Positions 2,931 to 21,860 of a DNA stretch of 32,541 nucleotides are shown one piece after another. The DNA is taken from NCBI GenBank assembly GCA_016181585.1, contig JACOYX010000003.1, positions 1 through 32,541 of the forward strand. Direction: 5' to 3'. Numbering within the stretch: the stretch's first letter is position 1; every line of letters starts with the position of its first letter. This DNA is from Candidatus Sungiibacteriota bacterium. Its GTDB lineage: Bacteria; Patescibacteriota; Minisyncoccia; Sungbacterales; HO2-52-23. Position numbers and translations under genes: made by a program. Under the pieces are notes generated by a model. The model did no database searches. It was not told where the DNA came from and worked only from the letters and a program-made list of their open reading frames with translations.

Positions 2931-3587
2931 ATGCGCAAAACTTTATTCGCCAACGGGGAGTATTATCATTTGTATAACCGCGGGGTGGACAAGCGGAATA
3001 TTTTTTCTGATTCTTACGATACTTCACGCTTTTTTCAAAGTATATCCGAGTTCAATAGTGTAGAGCCGATAGGGAGTATTTACGAAAACTCTTTTTCAAA
3101 AACAATTAAAGATAAGCAGGTGCTAAAAAGGAAATCAGAAAGTAAACTTGTGAATATGGTAGCGTATTGTCTCAATCCAAATCACTATCATTTTGTTGTT
3201 GAGCAAGTTGTTGATAGGGGGGTAGAAAAATTTATGCATAGGCTATCAACCGGCTATACTAAATATTTTAACAAAAAACATGATCGATCGGGCACACTGT
3301 TTCAGGGACCGTATAAGGCGGTGCATGTTGGTTCGAATGAGTATTTCTTACATTTAAGTGCTTATGTAAATCTTAATTACAAGGTTCATCGACTTGGAAG
3401 CTTAGCTTCCAAGTCGAGTTGGGAAGAGTATATTGGAGAAACGAATATGAGTTTTTGTTCTACAAAGCCAATTTTAGAGCAATTTAAAAATCAGCAAGAG
3501 TATAAAATATTTGCTCTCGAATCTGTACAATGTACTGCTGAACGAAGGCGGGCAGATAAAGAATTAGGGGATAAACTGTTAGAATAA
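2931..3587 (+). CDS. REP-associated tyrosine transposase (RAYT, Y1_Tnp family)
   Basis: This is a single-strand DNA transposase/endonuclease of the HUH superfamily, 218 aa, close to the usual RAYT length. It has the N-terminal YYHLYNRGVDKRNIF motif, the metal-binding HUH motif as His85-Tyr86-His87 within LNPNHYHFVV, and the catalytic tyrosine region LSTGYTKYFN (Tyr109 or Tyr112), followed by RSGTLFQGPYKA. RAYTs recognise and cut short palindromes (REPs) and are thought to be domesticated IS200/IS605-like enzymes. Here palindromes lie 14 bases before the start, inside the gene (encoding RLGSLASKS, residues 154-162) and 3 bases after the stop, which strongly supports the assignment. Residues 45-70 are a charged insert between the first motif and the HUH motif. 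No partner tnpB is present. Confidence 0.9.
   Translation: MRKTLFANGEYYHLYNRGVDKRNIFSDSYDTSRFFQSISEFNSVEPIGSIYENSFSKTIKDKQVLKRKSESKLVNMVAYCLNPNHYHFVVEQVVDRGVEKFMHRLSTGYTKYFNKKHDRSGTLFQGPYKAVHVGSNEYFLHLSAYVNLNYKVHRLGSLASKSSWEEYIGETNMSFCSTKPILEQFKNQQEYKIFALESVQCTAERRRADKELGDKLLE
3389..3417 (-). repeat. REP-like palindrome, copy 3, inside the RAYT gene (centre T)
   Basis: The core is identical to copies 1 and 2 but in the opposite orientation (central T). The arms extend to 14 bp because TCG and CGA flank the core. It is read in frame as part of the transposase. Confidence 0.85.
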
Positions 3588-3590
3588 ATT

Positions 3591-3613
3591 ACTTGGAAGC
3601 TTAGCTTCCAAGT
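3591..3613 (-). repeat. REP-like palindrome, copy 4 (centre T)
   Basis: A perfect 11-bp inverted repeat with central T, 3 bases after the RAYT stop codon. It is in the same orientation as copy 3 and opposite to copies 1 and 2, so the outer copies bracket the gene as an inverted pair. Confidence 0.85.
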
Positions 3614-3619
3614 AGAAAG

Positions 3620-3648
3620 TTGGTATTTTTTAAATTTTTATGTATACT
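3620..3648 (+). promoter_or_regulatory. Probable leuS promoter
   Basis: TTGGTA, a 17-nt spacer, then TATACT. Initiation about 7 bases after the -10 would leave a leader of only a few bases before the leuS ATG at 3662, which has no Shine-Dalgarno. This suggests near-leaderless translation. Confidence 0.5.
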
Positions 3649-3661
3649 TTTTCATAATATT

Positions 3662-6658
3662 ATGCGCTATAATCCCAAACAAATTGAAAAAAAATGGCAG
3701 AAAGTTTGGCTGAAGAAGGGTGTATATGAGCCCGACTTGAAGCGCGCGAAAAAGCCGTTTTATAACCTCATGATGTTTCCCTACCCTTCGGCGGAGGGGT
3801 TGCATATCGGGAGCGTACGCACATTCACGGGCGTCGATATCTACGGGCGCTTCAAGCGCATGCTGGGGTTTGACGTGTTTGAACCGATTGGTCTCGATGG
3901 CTTCGGCATACACTCGGAAAACTATGCGCTCAAAATTGGAAAACATCCGATGAAGCTCGCCAAAATTACTGAAAAAAATTTTTACCGTCAGCTAGCTGAA
4001 ATTGGCAACGGATTTTCATGGAAAGAGCATTTCGAAACATATGATCAGGAATATTATAAATGGACGCAGTGGGTATTTATACAGCTTTTTAAAAGAGGGC
4101 TAGCCTACCGGAAAAAGCAGGCGGTCAATTGGTGTCCTTCATGCTTAACCGTGCTTGCGGACGAGCAAGTTGTCTCCGGCGAATGCGAACGGTGCGGCGC
4201 AAAGGTCACAAAAAAAGAGCTTGAACAATGGTTTTTCCGGATCACCAAATATGCGGAGCGGCTATTGAATAATATAGATGGTAGTCCCTCGACCCAGAAT
4301 CCGACCGCCGATGCGGATGCTACGGGGCAGGCAAGCTCGGGAACTAAAAATTTAAAAGGGCTGGACTGGTCTGAAAATATAAAAATTGCGCAAAGGAATT
4401 GGATCGGGCGTTCGGAGGGTGCTGCAATCAAATTTGAACTTATTGATGTCCCCGGACAGCCGGACAAGAAGCATGCAGTGGAAATCTTTACCACGCGGCC
4501 CGACACGCTCTTTGGTGCGACGTTTCTCGTTATTTCTCCTGAACTTGCAAAGTTTTGGCTCGAAATCGGATGGGAAGCGCCGGAGGGAATTCGGAATTAT
4601 ATTGATGAGGCGCTCAAGAGGCGGATCCTTGAAAAAAGAGACCGCGACGGAAAAGACAAGACAGGCATCGAGAGCGGTATTTTCGCACTCAATCCTGCAA
4701 ATAAGGAGAAAATTCCCGTATGGATCTCGGATTATGTGCTGGCAGGATACGGCACGGGAGCAATTATGGCGGTTCCTGCGCATGACGAACGCGACTTTGA
4801 ATTTGCAAATAAGTTTGGTTTGCCAATTAAGCAAGTAGTTGCTCCCTATATGGTTGTTGACGGTACTGATGCGCCTCGCTCAAGTAATAATATTGTCAGA
4901 TTTAATGCGGCAACCGTGATTATTAAGCATTGGGCAAAGGATCTTTATTATGTGGTTGATTTTTCCGAGCATCATCGTGGTCTCGTTGGCGGACATATAG
5001 AAGAAGGGGAAACATCTGAACAAACGGCGTTACGCGAAACTCGAGAGGAATCCGGATATACGGATATCAAATTCATCTCGCTTGTTCTCGAGCATGCATA
5101 TTCACGGGGATACAAAACAAGAAAATCACGGGAAGAAGAATGTCACGATAGTGTGTTTGCGATTATTCTTGGAAGCGAGGCGCGCGTTGATATTGTTGAT
5201 CGCGAAACAAAAAAAGGACAATGGAAAACAAAGGAAGATATTCTGAATGACGCGCAATTTTCTAATCACCATAAAGAGTTTTTCTCTTTATACATAGGTC
5301 ATAAGCCCTTTACAGGGTCGGGGGTGCAGGTGAATTCCGGCAAATTCGACCGTATGGGTTCCGAAGAGGCGAAGCGGGCGATTACGGAATTTGTCGGCGG
5401 AAAAAGAAAAATACAGTATCACCTGCGCGATTGGCTCATTAGCCGCCAGCGATATTGGGGTCCGCCGATTCCCATGATTTTTTGCGAAGTATGTTATGGC
5501 GCAGGACGCGGAGAACAAAAGGAAATGCCGGGGTGGCATACGGTGCCGGAACAAGATTTGCCGGTAAAACTTCCTTTTGTGAAGGACTTTCGGCCGAAGG
5601 GAACAGGAACATCTCCGCTTGCAGAAGCCTCCATATTTTCCAAAGTAAAATGCCCCGCATGCAAAAAAACGGCGCGGCGCGAAACCGATGTTTCAGATAC
5701 ATTTCTCGATTCCGCTTGGTATTATTTGCGCTATCCCTCGGTAAATGAAAAAAAAGCGGCATGGAATAAAGAAATAACAAAAAAATGGCTGCCGGTGGAT
5801 ATGTATATCGGCGGAGCGGAGCATTCGGTGTTGCATCTCCTTTATTCGCGATTTATCGCTATGGTATTTTGCGATGCCAAGGTATTGCCTTTTGAAGAGC
5901 CTTTCACCACGTTCCGCGCTCACGGACTTATTACCAAAGACGGAGCAAAAATGTCGAAATCCAAAGGAAACGTCGTAAGCCCCGATGAATATATCCGCGC
6001 GTATGGGGCCGATGCGGTGCGCATGTATTTGGCGTTTTTGGCGCCTTTGCCCGAGGGCGGGGATTTTCGCGATGAAGGAATTCGGGGAATTACGAGATTT
6101 TTAGATCGGGTGTGGAAGTTTACAAATGAAAAAATAAAAATAAAAAATGAAAAACCGCAACGAAAAAAGAAAAACGAAATTCAATCGGCAGTACATAAAA
6201 CTATTAAGAAAGTAACTGGAGATGTAGAAGCGTTGCAATACAATACAGCCATTTCGGCATTAATGATTTTGTTGAATAAATTTGAAGAAAATACGGAAGA
6301 GATTTCAAGCGAAGACTGCAAGGTATTTTTGAAGCTTCTTGCCCCATTTGCACCGCATATCACGGAAGAATTATATCAATCACTAAAATCTAAGAGCTAT
6401 AAGCTAAAAGCTTTTTCAAGCATTCATAGTGAACCGTGGCCGAAATTTAATGCGAAGTTTATCCATGAAGAAACCTATGAATTGGTCGTGCAAGTAAACG
6501 GTAAAATACGCGATAAATTTGAAGTAGCACAGAATGTTTCCGAAAAAGAAGCGGTAGATTTGACACTCGCACGGGAAAAAGTTAAATTGTTGCTCAACAG
6601 TAAGCCGTATAAAAAAATAATTTTTGTTCCCGGACGGCTGGTCAATATTGTTCTTTGA
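3662..6658 (+). CDS. leuS: Leucyl-tRNA synthetase with inserted Nudix domain
   Basis: It charges tRNA-Leu with leucine in the cytoplasm. I start it at ATG 3662 (MRYNPKQIEKKW), the usual LeuRS N-terminus, rather than at the upstream TTG at 3620; that gives 998 aa. The signature motif at 48-51 reads HIGS instead of HIGH, in FPYPSAEGLHIGS. A zinc module CPSC/CERC lies at 158-178 and a second CEVC/CPAC at about 608-667. The editing domain keeps TTRPDTLFGATF (277-288) and AVPAHDERDFEFA (370-382). KMSKS is at 763-767, and the C-terminal domain ends in a VNGKIRDK motif region. Two insertions stand out: a low-complexity segment at 207-230, and a full Nudix domain at about 396-550, between LPIKQVV and GVQVNSGKFD. 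The catalytic motifs and frame are intact, so this is a working synthetase with an added domain. Confidence 0.95.
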   Translation: MRYNPKQIEKKWQKVWLKKGVYEPDLKRAKKPFYNLMMFPYPSAEGLHIGSVRTFTGVDIYGRFKRMLGFDVFEPIGLDGFGIHSENYALKIGKHPMKLAKITEKNFYRQLAEIGNGFSWKEHFETYDQEYYKWTQWVFIQLFKRGLAYRKKQAVNWCPSCLTVLADEQVVSGECERCGAKVTKKELEQWFFRITKYAERLLNNIDGSPSTQNPTADADATGQASSGTKNLKGLDWSENIKIAQRNWIGRSEGAAIKFELIDVPGQPDKKHAVEIFTTRPDTLFGATFLVISPELAKFWLEIGWEAPEGIRNYIDEALKRRILEKRDRDGKDKTGIESGIFALNPANKEKIPVWISDYVLAGYGTGAIMAVPAHDERDFEFANKFGLPIKQVVAPYMVVDGTDAPRSSNNIVRFNAATVIIKHWAKDLYYVVDFSEHHRGLVGGHIEEGETSEQTALRETREESGYTDIKFISLVLEHAYSRGYKTRKSREEECHDSVFAIILGSEARVDIVDRETKKGQWKTKEDILNDAQFSNHHKEFFSLYIGHKPFTGSGVQVNSGKFDRMGSEEAKRAITEFVGGKRKIQYHLRDWLISRQRYWGPPIPMIFCEVCYGAGRGEQKEMPGWHTVPEQDLPVKLPFVKDFRPKGTGTSPLAEASIFSKVKCPACKKTARRETDVSDTFLDSAWYYLRYPSVNEKKAAWNKEITKKWLPVDMYIGGAEHSVLHLLYSRFIAMVFCDAKVLPFEEPFTTFRAHGLITKDGAKMSKSKGNVVSPDEYIRAYGADAVRMYLAFLAPLPEGGDFRDEGIRGITRFLDRVWKFTNEKIKIKNEKPQRKKKNEIQSAVHKTIKKVTGDVEALQYNTAISALMILLNKFEENTEEISSEDCKVFLKLLAPFAPHITEELYQSLKSKSYKLKAFSSIHSEPWPKFNAKFIHEETYELVVQVNGKIRDKFEVAQNVSEKEAVDLTLAREKVKLLLNSKPYKKIIFVPGRLVNIVL
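4847..5311 (+). other. Nudix hydrolase domain inserted in LeuRS
   Basis: Residues about 396-550 of the product have no counterpart in canonical LeuRS, where the chain runs directly from the end of the editing domain (LPIK) to the NSG.FD motif. The insert holds a complete Nudix box at 444-466: Gly444, Glu450, Arg458-Glu459, Glu462-Glu463 and Gly465, in the order G-x5-E-x7-RE-x2-EE-x-G. Nudix enzymes cleave nucleoside diphosphates linked to another group, such as Ap4A, ADP-ribose or oxidised dNTPs. The insert is in frame, with base composition like the rest of leuS. The substrate cannot be told from sequence. Confidence 0.9.
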
Positions 6659-16006: not shown

Positions 16007-16036
16007 TCACACTGTCACAAGTGTGATTTTATTTTC
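16007..16036 (+). terminator. folD terminator
   Basis: A 7-bp stem TCACACT/AGTGTGA with a 6-nt loop is followed by TTTTATTTTC. Its 3' arm and T-tract run into the 37-nt direct repeat. Confidence 0.75.
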
Positions 16037-16060
16037 TTCAAAAGAGCATGCTTTTATTGC
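16024..16060 (+). repeat. 37-nt direct repeat, left copy
   Basis: An exact 37-nt match to 21735-21771, same orientation. It begins TGATTTTATTTTC and ends GCTTTTATTGC. The right copy ends within the 3' terminus of tRNA-Leu. The pair encloses the AT-rich island and may be the attachment-site pair of an integrated element. Confidence 0.85.
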
Positions 16061-16195
16061 TTCATTCTTAAAATAGTTCGAACGCATTTCGCCGCCTGCG
16101 GCGGCGAGGAAGTTCCCCCGCGAAAATTCGGAAAAGCGGTGGAGCCGCACCACCGACAATTTCAAGTTTTTCTTTGGCGGCAAAAATTAAACACA
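16061..16195. other. Non-coding stretch with GC-rich palindromes
   Basis: No gene is visible. It contains CGCCGC/GCGGCG palindromic sequence near 16090 and a segment that resembles, in weaker form, the ends of the inverted repeats at 17020 and 21481 (GAACGC followed by a GC-rich hairpin, then TTTTTCTTTGGCGG). It may be a decayed third copy. Confidence 0.4.
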
Positions 16196-16807
16196 TTAGT
16201 GAATCATCGGTGGCAAAAGGCTACGCACAAAAATATTAAATAGTGAATATTTAAATACAATATTTTTATATTCAGACTCGCCACGTTCTCTGATAAAAAG
16301 ATCTTTGCAAAAATTAAACACCGTAGGATTTTCGTAAAGTGGACGGCGATCGGGATTAGGATAAAAGTAAAAAGCACTACACTGACATTTTCCGGTTCTT
16401 AGAACAATCTCGGCCGGATCATATGAACCACATTGCTCGTCGTAAATAGAACGGTTGGGATGCAAAGGAAAAAAATAGTCGGAAATTTCTGTTTTTGGTC
16501 CATTAGAGGAATATTGACCTGCAATAACAGTGCCGTTTAAAATTACAATAAGTAATATCAAAATTTCCAAAATACCCAGAGTGACTTTGAGCCATTGTTT
16601 GGTCGTGGCCACGATAATGCTTACTGGCAGAAAAATTAAGAGGATAACAAATCCGTAAGCCCAAAAAATGAAAAAATTATTTTGGTTTTCGGGCCAAACT
16701 GGATAAAGATCAAACGGGCTATCAAAATAAAGCATCAAAAATACAAAAAATACGGTGTAGACAAATGTTATAGTTAAAAAAATATATAAGAATTTTTTCC
16801 AAGGCAT
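16196..16807 (-). CDS. Hypothetical membrane protein, 203 aa
   Basis: Not recognised. It has three clear membrane segments: about 6-28 (LYIFLTITFVYTVFFVFLML), 45-67 (FFIFWAYGFVILLIFLPVSII) and 75-97 (LGILEILILLIVILNGTVIA). These are followed by a soluble domain of about 100 residues with several cysteines (DEQCGSYDP, GKCQCSAF, NFCKDLF), which could be extracytoplasmic and disulfide-bonded. It starts at ATG 16807 in a very AT-rich region with no Shine-Dalgarno. It is the only gene on this strand in the island and lies outside the inverted-repeat cassette but inside the direct repeats. The base composition is AT-rich like the cassette genes. Confidence 0.7.
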   Translation of the reverse strand: MPWKKFLYIFLTITFVYTVFFVFLMLYFDSPFDLYPVWPENQNNFFIFWAYGFVILLIFLPVSIIVATTKQWLKVTLGILEILILLIVILNGTVIAGQYSSNGPKTEISDYFFPLHPNRSIYDEQCGSYDPAEIVLRTGKCQCSAFYFYPNPDRRPLYENPTVFNFCKDLFIRERGESEYKNIVFKYSLFNIFVRSLLPPMIH

Positions 16808-17019
16808 ATATTAAAAATTAATGATTAAAAAATTTTCTTTTCCCCGAATTAAAATATAGTTCGCGCCGATGTTTTTCTACGGGTTCTTTTGCGGCTTTGA
16901 TTCGCGCGGTTTAAGTTTATAATAAAACCATTTCCTACGTGGTGTATCTATACAATCACGCTCGAACCTATTTTAGCAAAAATTTCTGAAATGGGCGAAC
17001 GCCCCGCCCCGCCGCAGAG

Positions 17020-17232
17020 CGGCGGCCACGCCTCAACAAAATTTTCTTCCACTTTTCTGATTTTGTGCGCGCCCATTTTCTTTTTCAATTAAGGAATAAG
17101 AAAATTTTGCTTCGGCGTTCTGCCCTGACGGGCAGGCGGAGGCGTGCTGACATTCCCATTTGGGCGCGGCGGAATTCCCCCCACACCCACCTTCCGCCGC
17201 GCCCTCGCAAAGAAAACATGGCGGTGTAAAAC
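17020..17232 (+). repeat. ~200-bp imperfect inverted repeat, left copy
   Basis: Aligned with the reverse complement of 21481-21688 it shows the same order of parts: a CACAAAA...TTTTCTTC segment, a tgtgcgcgc segment, AAGAAAA then TTTT, GCTTCGG, a GC-rich hairpin, GGCGGCGGAA, and a 37-nt inner end (17196-17232) that differs at only 3 positions. It contains a perfect 13-bp hairpin GGGCGCGGCGGAA/TTCCGCCGCGCCC at 17162-17204 and AAAATTTTCTT/AAGAAAATTTT arms. The rest of the gap 16808-17019 holds no gene; a TATAAT at 16918 is a possible promoter. Confidence 0.75.
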
Positions 17233-17243
17233 AGTTAAAATTC

Positions 17244-17252
17244 TGTTATAAT
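17244..17252 (+). promoter_or_regulatory. Probable promoter of the cassette operon
   Basis: TGTTATAAT, an extended -10 with a perfect TATAAT and no clear -35. It lies directly inside the left inverted repeat, about 40 bases before ATG 17293. Confidence 0.5.
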
Positions 17253-17292
17253 CAAATTGAGGTCGAGTTATAAACGATAATAAAAATACTCC

Positions 17293-17715
17293 ATGACTTT
17301 AATTCAAAGATTAGCATGGGCTTACGCAATCCTTTTTATACTCGTAACAGCTATAGGATATGTACCGGCTTTTAATGATGAGAGTGGTAATTTATTTGGC
17401 TTATTCTCGCTCCAATTTTATGATGATCTGTTGCATCTTGCGTCCGGCATTTGGGCGGGAATAGCCGCATGGCTTTCGTATCGCGCTTCGATTTCTTACT
17501 TCAAAATCTTTGGGATTTTATACGGAATGGATGGAATTGTGGGACTCCTAACCGGAAGTGGATATTTGGATCTTGGAATTTTTCTGAATGGTCCCTTAAA
17601 CCTAGATTTATGGACAAGAGTCGCAACCAATACCCCCCATATATTGATTGGAGGATTTGCGGCATATATAGGTTTTGTTTTAAGTAAAAAATTTAATAAC
17701 AAAACGAGGTTCTAA
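17293..17715 (+). CDS. DUF4383-like membrane protein
   Basis: The protein has 140 aa and four predicted membrane helices: about 9-26, 45-65, 68-90 and 112-132. The pattern GNLFGLFSLQFYDDLLHLASGIWAGIAAW resembles the DUF4383 signature (LFGLF, then a His-containing helix with a G in a vLHlltGi pattern). The function of that family is unknown. It is the first gene of a four-gene operon; the next gene begins 11 bases after its stop. Confidence 0.7.
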   Translation: MTLIQRLAWAYAILFILVTAIGYVPAFNDESGNLFGLFSLQFYDDLLHLASGIWAGIAAWLSYRASISYFKIFGILYGMDGIVGLLTGSGYLDLGIFLNGPLNLDLWTRVATNTPHILIGGFAAYIGFVLSKKFNNKTRF

Positions 17716-17726
17716 TTCAAAAATAT

Positions 17727-18905
17727 TTGAAAAAGATTTTATACATTATTTGGCATTCACGCACAGCCAAGGCTATTGTCTTGGTAATTTTGCTTAGCAT
17801 TTTAATTAAGTCGTATGAGGCTTTGACAAAGCCACAAACTAGCAATTATGAGTCTGGTAGTGTTGTAAATAATGAATCTCAAATAAATAAGTTTGAGGTA
17901 GAAAAATTTGAAATTTCTAAAGTGCCGAAAGATGAAAAGGATAAAATCCTTTCTGAATTTCCTGTTTATGGTTCGAGAAAAATAGAACAAACCTACTTAA
18001 CACTGCCTGAGTGGTATCAGGTTTATAGTTATAATGAGTTCGGCGATTTCCTGCATAGTGGCGGAAGACAATCTGATTTTCCATTTTTACGATCTATTAA
18101 GAATTTCTGGGGCTATTACCGCATTGCCTTAAGTGAGAGCAGAGATGAAAAATTTAATTGGCAATATAATTTTGTTACTTTGGTTATTGGGGCCAATTTA
18201 AGCGCAGAATACTTTATCAAATCGGTCTATGAAAATACAGTAGGAACGATTACTCAATTCATATCGGGGAGCAATACCGAGGCAGATAGATTTATCGCTA
18301 ACTCCTGGAATAACTATGCAAAAAAGATGTATCAAGCTACGTGGTATCACTATCCTTACTTTGACGACTTAAAAGGTATATGGTCAGAAACCCCGCTTTT
18401 CAATAAAAACTTTATTAGAAATTTTGAAAGAAAAATTGCATTTTCTATCTCCTATTTGATAAAAGGCACCTACGCAAAAATTTGGTTGCTGACGGCCGCT
18501 CAAAAGGAAAATCAAACTTTCAGTATTGTATATGCAAAAGATAAATTGGCACTAGAAAATGAAGGAATAAAAATTCTGAAAGAAATATCAGGTGATAAAT
18601 ATCTTATAGAAACCGAAAGATATGCCGGATTTGAAGAAGTACTTTTGAAATTAATATCTAAGGATGTGAAATTCGCAGAAATTCAGGGGCATGACATAAT
18701 TGCATTTTCGTATCTATCAAACAAAGAATTGGAACTGTTTTCAAATTCTGATGGTGCTGACATTTTAGATAAGAGAAAATTATTTTTTGAACCAAATGGT
18801 TATACGCATCGAGTAACATTAAGAGTCAAGGCCCAGAATTTAAAAGAGGTCATTGATGCCATAAACTCAAATGGAAATAAATTTGAAATGATTTATGATT
18901 TCTAA
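17727..18905 (+). CDS. Conserved-type hypothetical protein with N-terminal membrane anchor, 392 aa
   Basis: No function known. Residues about 14-30 (AKAIVLVILLSILI) form one membrane segment; the remainder would lie outside the cytoplasm. Characteristic phrases are TYLTLPEWYQVYSYNEFGDFL, NFWGYYRIALSESRDEKFNWQYNFV and YENTVGTITQFISG. From memory, unannotated proteobacterial proteins share a TLPEWY..VY pattern, which would point to a conserved family and to transfer. The start is TTG at 17727, since the frame is closed at 17697 and no ATG or GTG precedes the membrane segment; no good ribosome binding site is visible, so it may depend on coupling to the upstream gene. Its end overlaps the next gene by 11 bases. 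Confidence 0.72.
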   Translation: MKKILYIIWHSRTAKAIVLVILLSILIKSYEALTKPQTSNYESGSVVNNESQINKFEVEKFEISKVPKDEKDKILSEFPVYGSRKIEQTYLTLPEWYQVYSYNEFGDFLHSGGRQSDFPFLRSIKNFWGYYRIALSESRDEKFNWQYNFVTLVIGANLSAEYFIKSVYENTVGTITQFISGSNTEADRFIANSWNNYAKKMYQATWYHYPYFDDLKGIWSETPLFNKNFIRNFERKIAFSISYLIKGTYAKIWLLTAAQKENQTFSIVYAKDKLALENEGIKILKEISGDKYLIETERYAGFEEVLLKLISKDVKFAEIQGHDIIAFSYLSNKELELFSNSDGADILDKRKLFFEPNGYTHRVTLRVKAQNLKEVIDAINSNGNKFEMIYDF

Positions 18906-19872
18906 ATTTCGTGGAAAACTTATAAAATTTTTTTATTTTCTCCTTGGTTTTGTTATCCTAATTTTTTCTTGGCTATGGTTTGTAGATTTATTTCTTGAGA
19001 ACGATGATGTATATGTCTCTGCTCCACAAAATACTAAATGGGTAGAGGTGGGTAAGAATAAAATCGCCTATCAACATTTCATGGCCGATACCGGTAAAAA
19101 TGTGGCTTTAATTGGCGGTACAACGGCATGGAGCGGTGTTTGGAAAAATACAATCGAAGACCTAGAGGGCAAATACAACATTTACGCTATAGATTTACCG
19201 CCATTTGGATTTTCTATTGTCGATGAAGAATATAAATACAATTTAGCGAATCAAGCTGATCTGATTAATGGGTTCTTGAAAAAGTTAAACATTCAAGACG
19301 TTGTTTTTGTGGCCCACTCATACGGGGCTGGACCATCGATGGAGGCCGTATTGAGAAATCAAGACAATTATAGAAAGTTTATAATTATTGATGGGGCAAT
19401 TCATGTTGATAGAGAAAGTAAACAACCTATCGGATTCGTAAAAAGTTTTTTCAGCATACCGACTTTTCGATACTTAATTTCGAGCGTTGCGCTGCATCTA
19501 CCTGGGTTTATGGAAGCGTCTTTGAAATATTTAGTTTATGACAATAGCAAGGTAGATGATTTTTGGGTAGGCATATATAACCAACCACTAAGCGTAGAAA
19601 ATCAAAGTCAGAAAATAGCTAAATGGTTTTATGATTTTGTTTTTGAAAATGGAACAGGGCTTTCTAGCGAAGGCGGCAACTATAAAGATTTGGTAATTCC
19701 CGTTGTAATAATCTGGGGCAAGGAGGATACTTTCACTCCTCTTGAGCAAGGTTTATATTTACAAAAAATAATTCCGCAAAACAACCTGATTATATTGGAT
19801 AAAGTGGGGCATATTCCCATGATCGATGATCGTGAGGGTTTTACTAAGGTATTGAAACAAAATTTGGAATAG
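18895..19872 (+). CDS. Membrane-anchored alpha/beta hydrolase
   Basis: A 325-aa protein. Residues 11-31 form a membrane anchor, then an alpha/beta hydrolase domain follows. The nucleophile elbow is VAHSYGAG with Ser142 (Ala replaces the usual first Gly), the acid is Asp278 in WGKEDTFTP, and the base is His306 in VGHIPMID. ALIGGTTAWSGVW takes the place of the oxyanion-hole HG motif. By family it is an esterase, lipase or similar hydrolase; the substrate is unknown. ATG 18895 overlaps the previous gene by 11 bases and the next start is 1 base after its stop, so the three are tightly coupled. The active site would face outside the cytoplasm. Confidence 0.88.
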   Translation: MISKFRGKLIKFFYFLLGFVILIFSWLWFVDLFLENDDVYVSAPQNTKWVEVGKNKIAYQHFMADTGKNVALIGGTTAWSGVWKNTIEDLEGKYNIYAIDLPPFGFSIVDEEYKYNLANQADLINGFLKKLNIQDVVFVAHSYGAGPSMEAVLRNQDNYRKFIIIDGAIHVDRESKQPIGFVKSFFSIPTFRYLISSVALHLPGFMEASLKYLVYDNSKVDDFWVGIYNQPLSVENQSQKIAKWFYDFVFENGTGLSSEGGNYKDLVIPVVIIWGKEDTFTPLEQGLYLQKIIPQNNLIILDKVGHIPMIDDREGFTKVLKQNLE

Positions 19873-19873
19873 A

Positions 19874-21481
19874 ATGGAAACGCTTAAAAAAATAATTAAA
19901 AAGCCGCTAATAGTTGTTGTTATCGCGTTCGTGATTGCGGTTTTTGTCATTGGAAAGAAAATTAAGTATTATGCTGCCAATCCAGCAGGCGAGAAAGATT
20001 GTCCGCCGCTTTTTCCAAATTTTGTTGGTGATCCGTCTAAGCAAAACAGGATTGAAATTGATGTGTCTCAATATGAACTCCCTTGGACGCAAAAGGGTGG
20101 CTTTATCAACGATGCAAGCTGCCTTAACAAAACTTCGGTGCATGGAGTTGTTTCGATACAAAACGTAGATGATATAAAAAATGCTTTGATTTTTGCGAAA
20201 GATGAAAATCTTAAAGTATCTATTGCGGGAGTTAAACATAGCATGGGCGGGCACGCATTTTATAAAAACGCTCTGATTTTAGACATGACGAAATTTAATC
20301 AAATGACGCTTAATGAAGAAAGTAAAATCCTAAACGTCAAGAGCGGCGCAACATGGCACGACATTCAAAATTTCCTTCACCCTAAATTTGCTGTCAAAGC
20401 TATGCAGTCCACCGATATTTTTACTATTGGCGGGTCAATTTCTGTCAATGCTCATGGGATGGATCATCACGCTGGAGCGATTGCAAGAACTATTCGCTCC
20501 ATGCGAGTTATGCTTTCTGATGGCTCAATAAAGAACATAAGCCGTGCTTAAAATCCGGAACTGTTTAGCTTGGTTGTTGGCGGCTATGGTCTTTTTGGGA
20601 TAGTACTTGATGTTGATTTGGAGATTACAGACAATGTGGTTTACCAGTCCGAACGAGAAGTTATTGACTACAAAGAATTTCCGGACGTATTCAATCGTAA
20701 AATCGAAAATGACGAGAATATAGGCTTGTTTTATGGTCATCTTTCTACGGTGCCGCAATCTTTTTTGAAAGAGATGATTTTATATACCTATAAAAAAGTT
20801 GATGTGCCCGACGCGAAAATTCCTCCACTCGGGGAGGTGAGCAATATCAAGTTGCGGAGGTTTATTTTTAATTTTGCTAAACAAGGGTCAGTTCCAATGC
20901 GATTAAAATGGTTTGCCGAGAAATATATTGAACCAATGCTCGAAAATTGTCCGGTTTCAAGAAACCAGGCACTCGGCGAGGGGGAGGCCTGTTTGGTATC
21001 GCGCAATGAACCGATGCATGATTCTGTCCCATATCTTCGAAATAATCTGAAAAATGATACGGATATATTGCATGAATATTTTGTCCCCCGCGATCAGTTC
21101 GCTTCGTATATTGACGGGATGAGAGAAATTATACTTAAAAATAATGCAAACCTCCTTAATGCTTCAGTTCGCGTCGTGCACAAAGAAAATAACTTTTTAA
21201 ACTATTCTCCCGCCGATACGTTCTCGATTGTGTTGTATCTGAATCAAACTACGGACGAAAAAGGAAATCAGAATATGCAAAAGGTTACGCAAGAGCTTAT
21301 TGATCTGACTATTGCACACGGTGGAAGATTCTTTTTGCCGTATCAGCTACATTACACAGCTGATCAACTAAAGCAGTCATACCCTGAATTTAGGTCATTT
21401 TTGGCGATGAAAAATAAATATGATCCGCAAGAACGATTGACAAGCACATTCTATAAAAAGTATTCTGCTGAAATTGAGTAG
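19874..21481 (+). pseudogene. FAD-linked oxidase with one in-frame TAA
   Basis: The two halves (19874-20548 and 20552-21481) are in the same frame and together would make about 535 residues. An N-terminal membrane segment (about 10-27) is followed by an FAD-binding (PCMH-type) domain: VSIAGVKHSMGG, LNVKSGATWHDI, TIGGSISVNAHGMDHHAG. The codon at 20549-20551 is TAA, in SRA-stop-NPELF, where relatives have an acidic residue. GAA to TAA is one base change. After it the protein resumes with LVVGGYGLFGIV and a normal C-terminal part. By family it oxidises a sugar lactone or similar hydroxyl substrate and passes electrons on. It is either a very recent pseudogene, a read-through product or a sequence error; nothing else in it is damaged. 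Confidence 0.85.
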
Positions 21482-21688
21482 TTTTACACCGCCACGTTTT
21501 CACTGCGAGGGCGCGGCAGGAGGGTGTGTGTGGTTCCGCCGCCCCCGAGCCGGAAGCGAAGCCCCGTCGTCCCGCGCGATTGAGCGCGGAGCCGAGCAAA
21601 AAAGTTTTCTTTTCCTTTTAGAAGAAAAAATCCGGCGCGCGCACATCAGGAAAAGCGAAGAAAACTTTTTTGTGGGGTGGCGAGCGTC
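21481..21688 (-). repeat. ~200-bp imperfect inverted repeat, right copy
   Basis: The reverse-complement counterpart of 17020-17232. Its first 37 bases (21481-21517, starting GTTTTACACCGCC) match the left inner end at 34 positions and begin on the last base of the oxidase stop. It contains its own perfect 15-bp inverted arms, CAAAAAAGTTTTCTT (21597-21611) and AAGAAAACTTTTTTG (21658-21672). No gene is supported between 21482 and 21768. Confidence 0.75.
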
Positions 21689-21714
21689 AGCTCACCAATT
21701 TTCTTTGGTAAAAT

Positions 21715-21742
21715 AAAATCACGCTCGATAAGCATGATTTTA
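21715..21742. terminator. Terminator between the cassette and tRNA-Leu
   Basis: An 11-bp stem AAAATCACGCT/AGCATGATTTT with one wobble pair and T-rich flanks on both sides. On the minus strand it follows the tRNA-Leu gene; on the plus strand it would end cassette transcripts. Confidence 0.65.
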
Positions 21743-21771
21743 TTTTCTTCAAAAGAGCATGCTTTTATTGC
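21735..21771 (+). repeat. 37-nt direct repeat, right copy, touching tRNA-Leu
   Basis: Identical to 16024-16060. Its last three bases are the 3' terminal bases of the tRNA-Leu gene on the other strand. The repeat includes AAAAG-AGCATG-CTTTT, itself a small hairpin. Confidence 0.85.
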
Positions 21772-21851
21772 CGCGGGGGAGAGTCGAACTCCCATGAGGT
21801 TGCCCTCGCGGGATTTTGAGTCCCGTGCGTCTGCCATTTCGCCACCGCGGC
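21769..21851 (-). tRNA. tRNA-Leu (anticodon CAA)
   Basis: The acceptor stem GCCGCGG/CCGCGGC is perfect, with discriminator A. The anticodon stem CGGGA/TCCCG holds the loop CTCAAAA, giving anticodon CAA (codon UUG). A long variable arm (CGAGGGCAACCTCAT) marks a class II tRNA-Leu. The T-arm GGGAG-TTCGACT-CTCCC is perfect. CCA is not encoded. Confidence 0.95.
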
Positions 21852-21860
21852 ATTTTTTAT

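Follow-up and report, generated by a model that had tools for sequence, protein, structure and literature searches.

Introduction

The serine-recombinase IMEs that have been reviewed are bounded by very short direct repeats, and the site-specific ones disrupt dispensable genes (PMC5704250). The 3′ ends of tRNA genes are described as the usual sites of tyrosine integrases (PMC4701971; PMC5704250). The elements described here resemble a tRNA-targeted genomic island in that they end in a tRNA 3′ end at a locus that is unoccupied in relatives, but differ from the tyrosine-integrase islands and ICEs in that they carry a serine recombinase and are found at tmRNA and many tRNAs. The starting point was a window of 32,541 nucleotides, i.e., the whole stretch of DNA analyzed, which represents contig C5 of a Candidatus Sungiibacteriota genome (G000; 867 kb in 31 contigs). 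Patescibacteria have very small genomes, and the routes by which they gain genes are poorly known. With a probability of about 80%, we read the locus as part of a two-module integrative element with a serine recombinase at tRNA ends, of which the window would hold a decayed remnant.

Inverted Repeats and the Operon They Frame

The original prediction, made from the window alone, described four genes at 17020–21688 framed by inverted repeats of approximately 200 bp. These repeats proved to be real: L (17025–17232) and R (21481–21681) were identical at 155 of 213 positions (73%) in inverted orientation (E value, 7e-24). Reading of the sequence also bore out the near-identical 37-nt inner ends (34/37 in agreement) and the overlap of R with the oxidase stop codon, whose final base is the first of R. 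The cargo had the different composition that had been ascribed to it (GC 0.33–0.39 compared with 0.45–0.52 in the neighbors), and Pfam analysis returned the genes as they had been named, with the second lacking any match. The features of this unit, designated module B, are as follows.

16940..17232, + strand: left inverted repeat, composed of an outer P-half (16940–16984), a cloverleaf-like palindrome and an inner G+C hairpin
17293..17715, + strand: DUF4383 membrane protein (Pfam PF14325; E value, 7.6e-8)
17727..18905, + strand: 392-aa protein without an assigned function (0 Pfam matches; relatives at 28–29% in 2 other genomes of 384)
18895..19872, + strand: alpha/beta hydrolase (Pfam PF00561; E value, 1.5e-20)
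19874..21481, + strand: FAD-dependent oxidase (FAD_binding_4 and ALO), with an in-frame TAA at 20549–20551
21481..21693, − strand: right inverted repeat, its outer P-half missing or unrecognizable (nhmmer E value, 1.9e-44)

An nhmmer model of the ends that was built from other genomes only matched R at an E value of 1.9e-44 and L at 1.9e-33, which indicates that the window repeats did not arise by chance. The match to R spanned model positions 98–261 of 265, and the left repeat reached outward to approximately 16940, where the P-half model matched 16940–16984 (E value, 3e-4). A search for the same four genes elsewhere was unsuccessful: relatives of the 392-aa protein numbered zero in a scan of GTDB contigs and two, both distant, in 384 genomes of the class, so that the four-gene set was found nowhere else in these collections.

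Two further observations were made in the window. A leucyl-tRNA synthetase gene (3620–6658) carries an apparent mid-gene Nudix-like insert (GGHIEEGETSEQTALRETREESGY), read by eye. Copies of a short palindrome (CTTGGAAGCTAAGCTTCCAAG) at 2259–2280, 2895–2916, 3392–3414, and 3591–3613 surround a 218-aa ORF (2931–3587) that resembles a REP-associated transposase.

Insertion at tRNA-Leu(caa)

Perfect 37-bp direct repeats, the longest exact repeat in the window, were found to bound an insertion that contains module B and a second unit, module A. The additional features are listed below.

16024..16060, + strand: left copy of the 37-bp direct repeat, whose last 6 nt (16055–16060, TATTGC) are the predicted core
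16061..16091, + strand: weak P-half (recombinase half-site) at the far end of the insertion (nhmmer E value, 0.06)
16196..16807, − strand: 203-aa membrane-protein gene, the only gene of module A (GC 0.34), inside the 37-bp direct repeats
21735..21771, + strand: right copy of the 37-bp direct repeat, overlapping the last 4 nt of tRNA-Leu(caa)
21768..21852, − strand: tRNA-Leu(caa), the inferred integration target, with its 3′ end facing the insertion

The hexamer TATTGC corresponds, on the opposite strand, to GCAATA, the 3′ terminus of tRNA-Leu(caa). The P-half that follows it was matched at an E value of 0.06 in a search of the window plus five loci and at 0.0011 in a search of a 1-kb region, and the distance from the end of its CGAAC to the core start is 29 nt, matching the other P-halves. 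Based on the direct-repeat end TATTGC and this weak P-half with its usual spacing, the insertion was placed at approximately 16055–21771. The unit at 17020–21688 thus stands as a repeat-framed module, but the whole insertion is larger. An empty site, for which the original prediction had proposed a search, was represented by two relatives of the same family (G006 and G011), where folD directly adjoins tRNA-Leu(caa) and parA; the window therefore has an insertion between folD and the tRNA.

Under the proposed model, the window would contain two tandem cargo modules at tRNA-Leu(caa), with the recombinase module absent. Reading of 16024–21852 throughout revealed no recombinase module with X repeats, which are described below. 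Together with the missing recombinase, the missing right terminus and the in-frame stop of the oxidase are signs of decay, and we interpret the window copy as the old and decayed remains of a two-module integrative element; such a decayed copy is unlikely to be mobile at present. The left core of module B, TGGTGT, fits a tRNA ending in ACACCA and not the tRNA-Leu of the window, so module B may have originated at another site. The tRNA-side junction was rearranged: after tRNA-Leu come 33 nt that duplicate its flank, a hairpin, and the truncated right repeat, with no X or intact P-half after the tRNA. The duplication of the locus’s own downstream flank after tRNA-Leu(caa) at 21735–21771, along with the new hairpin, is a feature of this junction that our model does not explain.

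A shared core of approximately 2 bp suffices for serine recombinases, and the 37-bp direct repeat of the window is longer than their mechanism predicts. This length and the non-canonical right junction would suit an explanation confined to the window, in which homologous recombination or another integrase put the genes at tRNA-Leu and the family ends were acquired later. Considering that both repeats frame the operon exactly in the style of the family and that a P-half follows the left direct repeat with the expected spacing, this explanation appears unlikely, and the remnant of a two-module integrative element is preferred.

Distribution and Pairing of the Repeat Family

The original prediction had called for a search of related genomes for the repeats, and they turned out to be widespread, with the same ends around unrelated cargo. 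The family, hereafter T ends, was detected in 48 of 142 relatives in one search and in 107 of 384 genomes of the class in a consensus search. From the outside in, a T end consists of a terminal core, a P-half of approximately 30 nt ending in CGAAC, a branched-hairpin palindrome and often a G+C hairpin. The main stem is maintained by paired changes: for 12 of 22 predicted pairs, both partners were changed in one or more sequences. The hairpins of the T ends are probably bidirectional terminators that would shield the cargo from transcription originating outside it.

Pairs were counted by hand as neighboring T repeats on one contig no more than 15 kb apart, with split matches within one repeat merged, and 23 of 26 such pairs were convergent. 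A common intergenic element that flanks unrelated genes singly, which could have made the pairing in the window a coincidence, is therefore not what was found. The two arms of the fetched loci were 71–100% identical, mostly more than 90%, over 87–393 bp. Many apparently single T repeats were located at contig ends, as is expected when assemblies break at near-identical arms. Chance pairing of a common single repeat was ruled out by orientation and pair identity.

A related possibility is that the operon is framed by coincidence, by dispersed palindromes or terminators of an ordinary kind, and came to a tRNA hotspot in some other way. It would be compatible with the identity of just 73% between the window repeats and with the partial single copies on contigs C14 and C23, the sole clear matches in the same genome beyond L and R. 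Only about a quarter of neighboring pairs would be expected to be convergent in that case, compared with the 23 of 26 counted; moreover, many apparent singles are contig ends and the pairs in other genomes are near-identical. Such a chance arrangement is extremely improbable.

Tandem cargo modules are present at G080:C1. A second end type, common to this locus (L077 1609–4516), was observed at C14:1–1345 of G000 (L002, L142) as 102-bp inverted repeats, 99% identical, on either side of a 336-aa gene. A partial type-1 end lies directly after this second-type module, representing another module pair in G000.

Cargo of the Framed Loci

Pairs of T repeats framed unrelated cargo of 1–10 kb that differed from locus to locus. 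The restriction-related cargo included type I and type II restriction-modification systems, a fusion of a LexA-like regulator and a methylase, an EcoRI-type methylase, and GmrSD, and many of the 82 scanned cargo proteins belonged to restriction-modification. Other loci carried an SNF2 helicase, a Z1 domain protein, an Hsp70-like protein, a carbamoyltransferase, a DsbD-like protein, and reductase genes, among others. No transposase or recombinase and no relaxase or conjugation gene was present among the Pfam families listed for the 82 cargo proteins, a listing that covers the first 25 families for two of the three batches, and no transposase was seen when the ORFs of 17 + 17 framed loci were read.

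These results agree with the part of the original prediction that described a cargo unit without an internal transposase, since unrelated cargo lies within the same ends. The mover is where it must be revised. The likely candidate is no transposase that works on the repeats; it is a large serine recombinase whose gene lies immediately beyond them and which would act at a short core derived from the tRNA.

Recombinase Module and tRNA Core

In ten fetched loci, the gene for a large serine recombinase started approximately 90–240 nt outside one T terminus and was transcribed away from the cargo. In place of the trans-acting transposase that the original prediction had suggested looking for, a serine recombinase module lies against the ends. 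The family recombinase contains Resolvase, Recombinase, and Zn_ribbon_recom domains; YokA of SPbeta and the A118 integrase are the closest of its relatives with a solved structure. Phage relatives were less than 30% identical among the best matches listed, and no family recombinase was confirmed in viral contigs.

The recombinase gene is framed by inverted repeats of its own, termed X, one upstream of the start and the other over the 3′ end. Of the 40 loci with X, 30 had an outer X that ran into the final 4–9 nt of a tRNA or tmRNA (counted by script; L193 was read by hand). Intact junctions read tRNA...CCGCCA followed by X; X, TGGCGG and cargo end; and cargo end, the core again, and flank. The core followed the tRNA, being CCGCCA at tRNA-Ser, CAGCCA at tRNA-Gln, CCACCA at tRNA-Ala and tmRNA, and GCACCA at tRNA-Arg and tRNA-Leu, and where the tRNA lacked an encoded CCA, the core was the local sequence. 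The inner junction had the same hexamer inverted (CCGCCA/TGGCGG, CAGCCA/TGGCTG, CCACCA/TGGTGG, and GCACCA/TGGTGC). In intact elements (e.g., L191 and L195), the core was directly repeated at both outer ends, i.e., in the tRNA 3′ hexamer and at the far cargo end. The co-variation of core and tRNA is the strongest evidence for the repeats as putative recombinase sites.

The same data bear on a non-autonomous DDE transposon, MITE-like or a mobile insertion cassette, in which a distant transposase would recognize the inverted ends and carry passenger genes. Long terminal inverted repeats, a transposase-free interior, and many unrelated cargos are what such an element would show. The flanks of the fetched loci contained no target duplication of constant length at the T termini, however; the terminal 6 nt vary with the adjacent tRNA, while the ends recognized by a transposase would be fixed, and directly next to the T termini lies a recombinase module that has this same core. 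A DDE transposon is accordingly very unlikely compared with recombination by the serine recombinase.

On contig C6, which breaks near the upstream X, the genome of the window also encodes a family recombinase of full length, positioned at a tRNA-Ala 3′ end. Contig C22 carries a decayed family recombinase near a restriction-modification gene pair related to that of G080; at C22:1160–4770 (L141), the methylase and its partner gene were 81% identical to the G080 cargo at the DNA level.

Independent Sample and Control

Twenty loci were picked from a phylum-wide search with the recombinase only, provided that the contig extended on the expected cargo side. The script detected X in 17 of the 20, leaving 3/20 without it, and a cargo inverted repeat beside X in 14/20; at L183, a second X copy lay beyond the cargo, in addition to the script count. 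Most of these loci ended at a tRNA or tmRNA, several had no detectable tRNA, and several were in closed or near-closed genomes. X or cargo repeats were found in none of 16 divergent recombinases of the same class (27–36% identity), indicating that the architecture belongs to the clade of the family recombinase. Most of these divergent serine recombinases (L207–L222), which lack inverted repeats, nevertheless lay near a tRNA 3′ end, often at a distance of a few hundred bases, and serine recombinases may target tRNAs generally in the class.

Signs of Movement

Beside unrelated cargo, the recombinase modules of three taxonomic families shared 88–90% DNA identity over approximately 1.8–1.9 kb, and two other families shared one restriction-modification cargo at 87% identity over 3.1 kb. 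The tRNA locus was free of the element in congeners, namely, in G371 and G332 for a G366 element and in G729 for a G510 element. An exact empty site was sought for one G366 element; G371 and G332 lacked the element, yet had other sequence there. These comparisons suggest movement of the element and exchange of its cargo.

Inverted repeats with an adjacent serine recombinase could also form an invertible switch, in which the recombinase flips the cargo and turns its expression on or off. Inversion would change little, as the same hairpin-rich repeat lies at both cargo ends; furthermore, wholly different cargo stands beside near-identical recombinases, and the absence of the element at the same tRNA in congeners indicates gain or loss, not switching. 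We consider a switch improbable as the explanation of the locus. Switching could nevertheless coexist with the mobility of an integrative element.

Proposed Mechanism

What the sequences themselves show is the architecture, the agreement of core and tRNA, the unrelated cargo beside near-identical recombinase modules of different families, and the unoccupied tRNA loci in relatives; on this basis we infer catalysis, excision, cargo exchange, and a route between cells. The intact order would be tRNA 3′ end, X′, recombinase gene, X, T, cargo genes, T′, and host flank. The recombinase is predicted to cut at a short core consisting of the last nucleotides of the tRNA, with the X ends and T ends serving as its pair of half-sites. 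The inner junction, X-core-T, would then be an intact attP-like site, tRNA-core-X′ would be attL, and T′-core-flank would be attR. As the outer cores are direct, recombination of attL with attR would cut out the complete element, and the tRNA would stay intact. As the inner core is inverted, its recombination with an outer core would flip one module, and this flip would be silent because the two ends of each module are alike. A cargo module could be mobilized in trans, provided that it carried the right T ends.

It is also conceivable, with somewhat less than an even chance, that the element is a platform for cassette exchange, where X-core-T is the capture site and T-framed modules, mainly of defense genes, are gained, swapped, and stacked at tRNA ends. 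If true, this would be a serine-recombinase counterpart of the integron across Patescibacteria.

Comparison With Known Systems

No description of the element was found in the open-licence literature (preprints were outside the scope of the search), and this kind of element, widespread in Patescibacteria, is apparently undescribed so far. A phylum-wide element with a clear architecture, a defined target and much restriction-modification among its cargo would offer a concrete answer to how Patescibacteria gain genes, and existing long reads could be screened for it. It would also account for the many Patescibacteria assemblies that break beside such recombinases. Serine recombinases that target tRNA ends, with a core that follows the tRNA, may be of interest to users of DNA integration.

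Elements with a single large serine recombinase (Tn4451 type IMEs, SPbeta/YokA, and A118) share the recombinase domains and the short outer direct repeats with the element described here. In contrast to them, the recombinase and the cargo are here separate modules, each within long inverted repeats, and an inverted attP-like site lies between the modules. Terminal inverted repeats, passenger genes, and an enzyme-free interior are shared with MITEs and mobile insertion cassettes, whereas here the termini follow the tRNA, no constant target duplication is present, and a recombinase module abuts. As in integrons, a recombinase stands beside interchangeable cargo with structured repeats, and modules occur in tandem (G080:C1). 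An integron itself was rejected, as there is no tyrosine IntI with attC sites in direct order. Compared with integrons, the recombinase is of the serine type instead of a tyrosine IntI, inverted repeats lie at both ends of each module instead of one attC each, and the site is a tRNA end.
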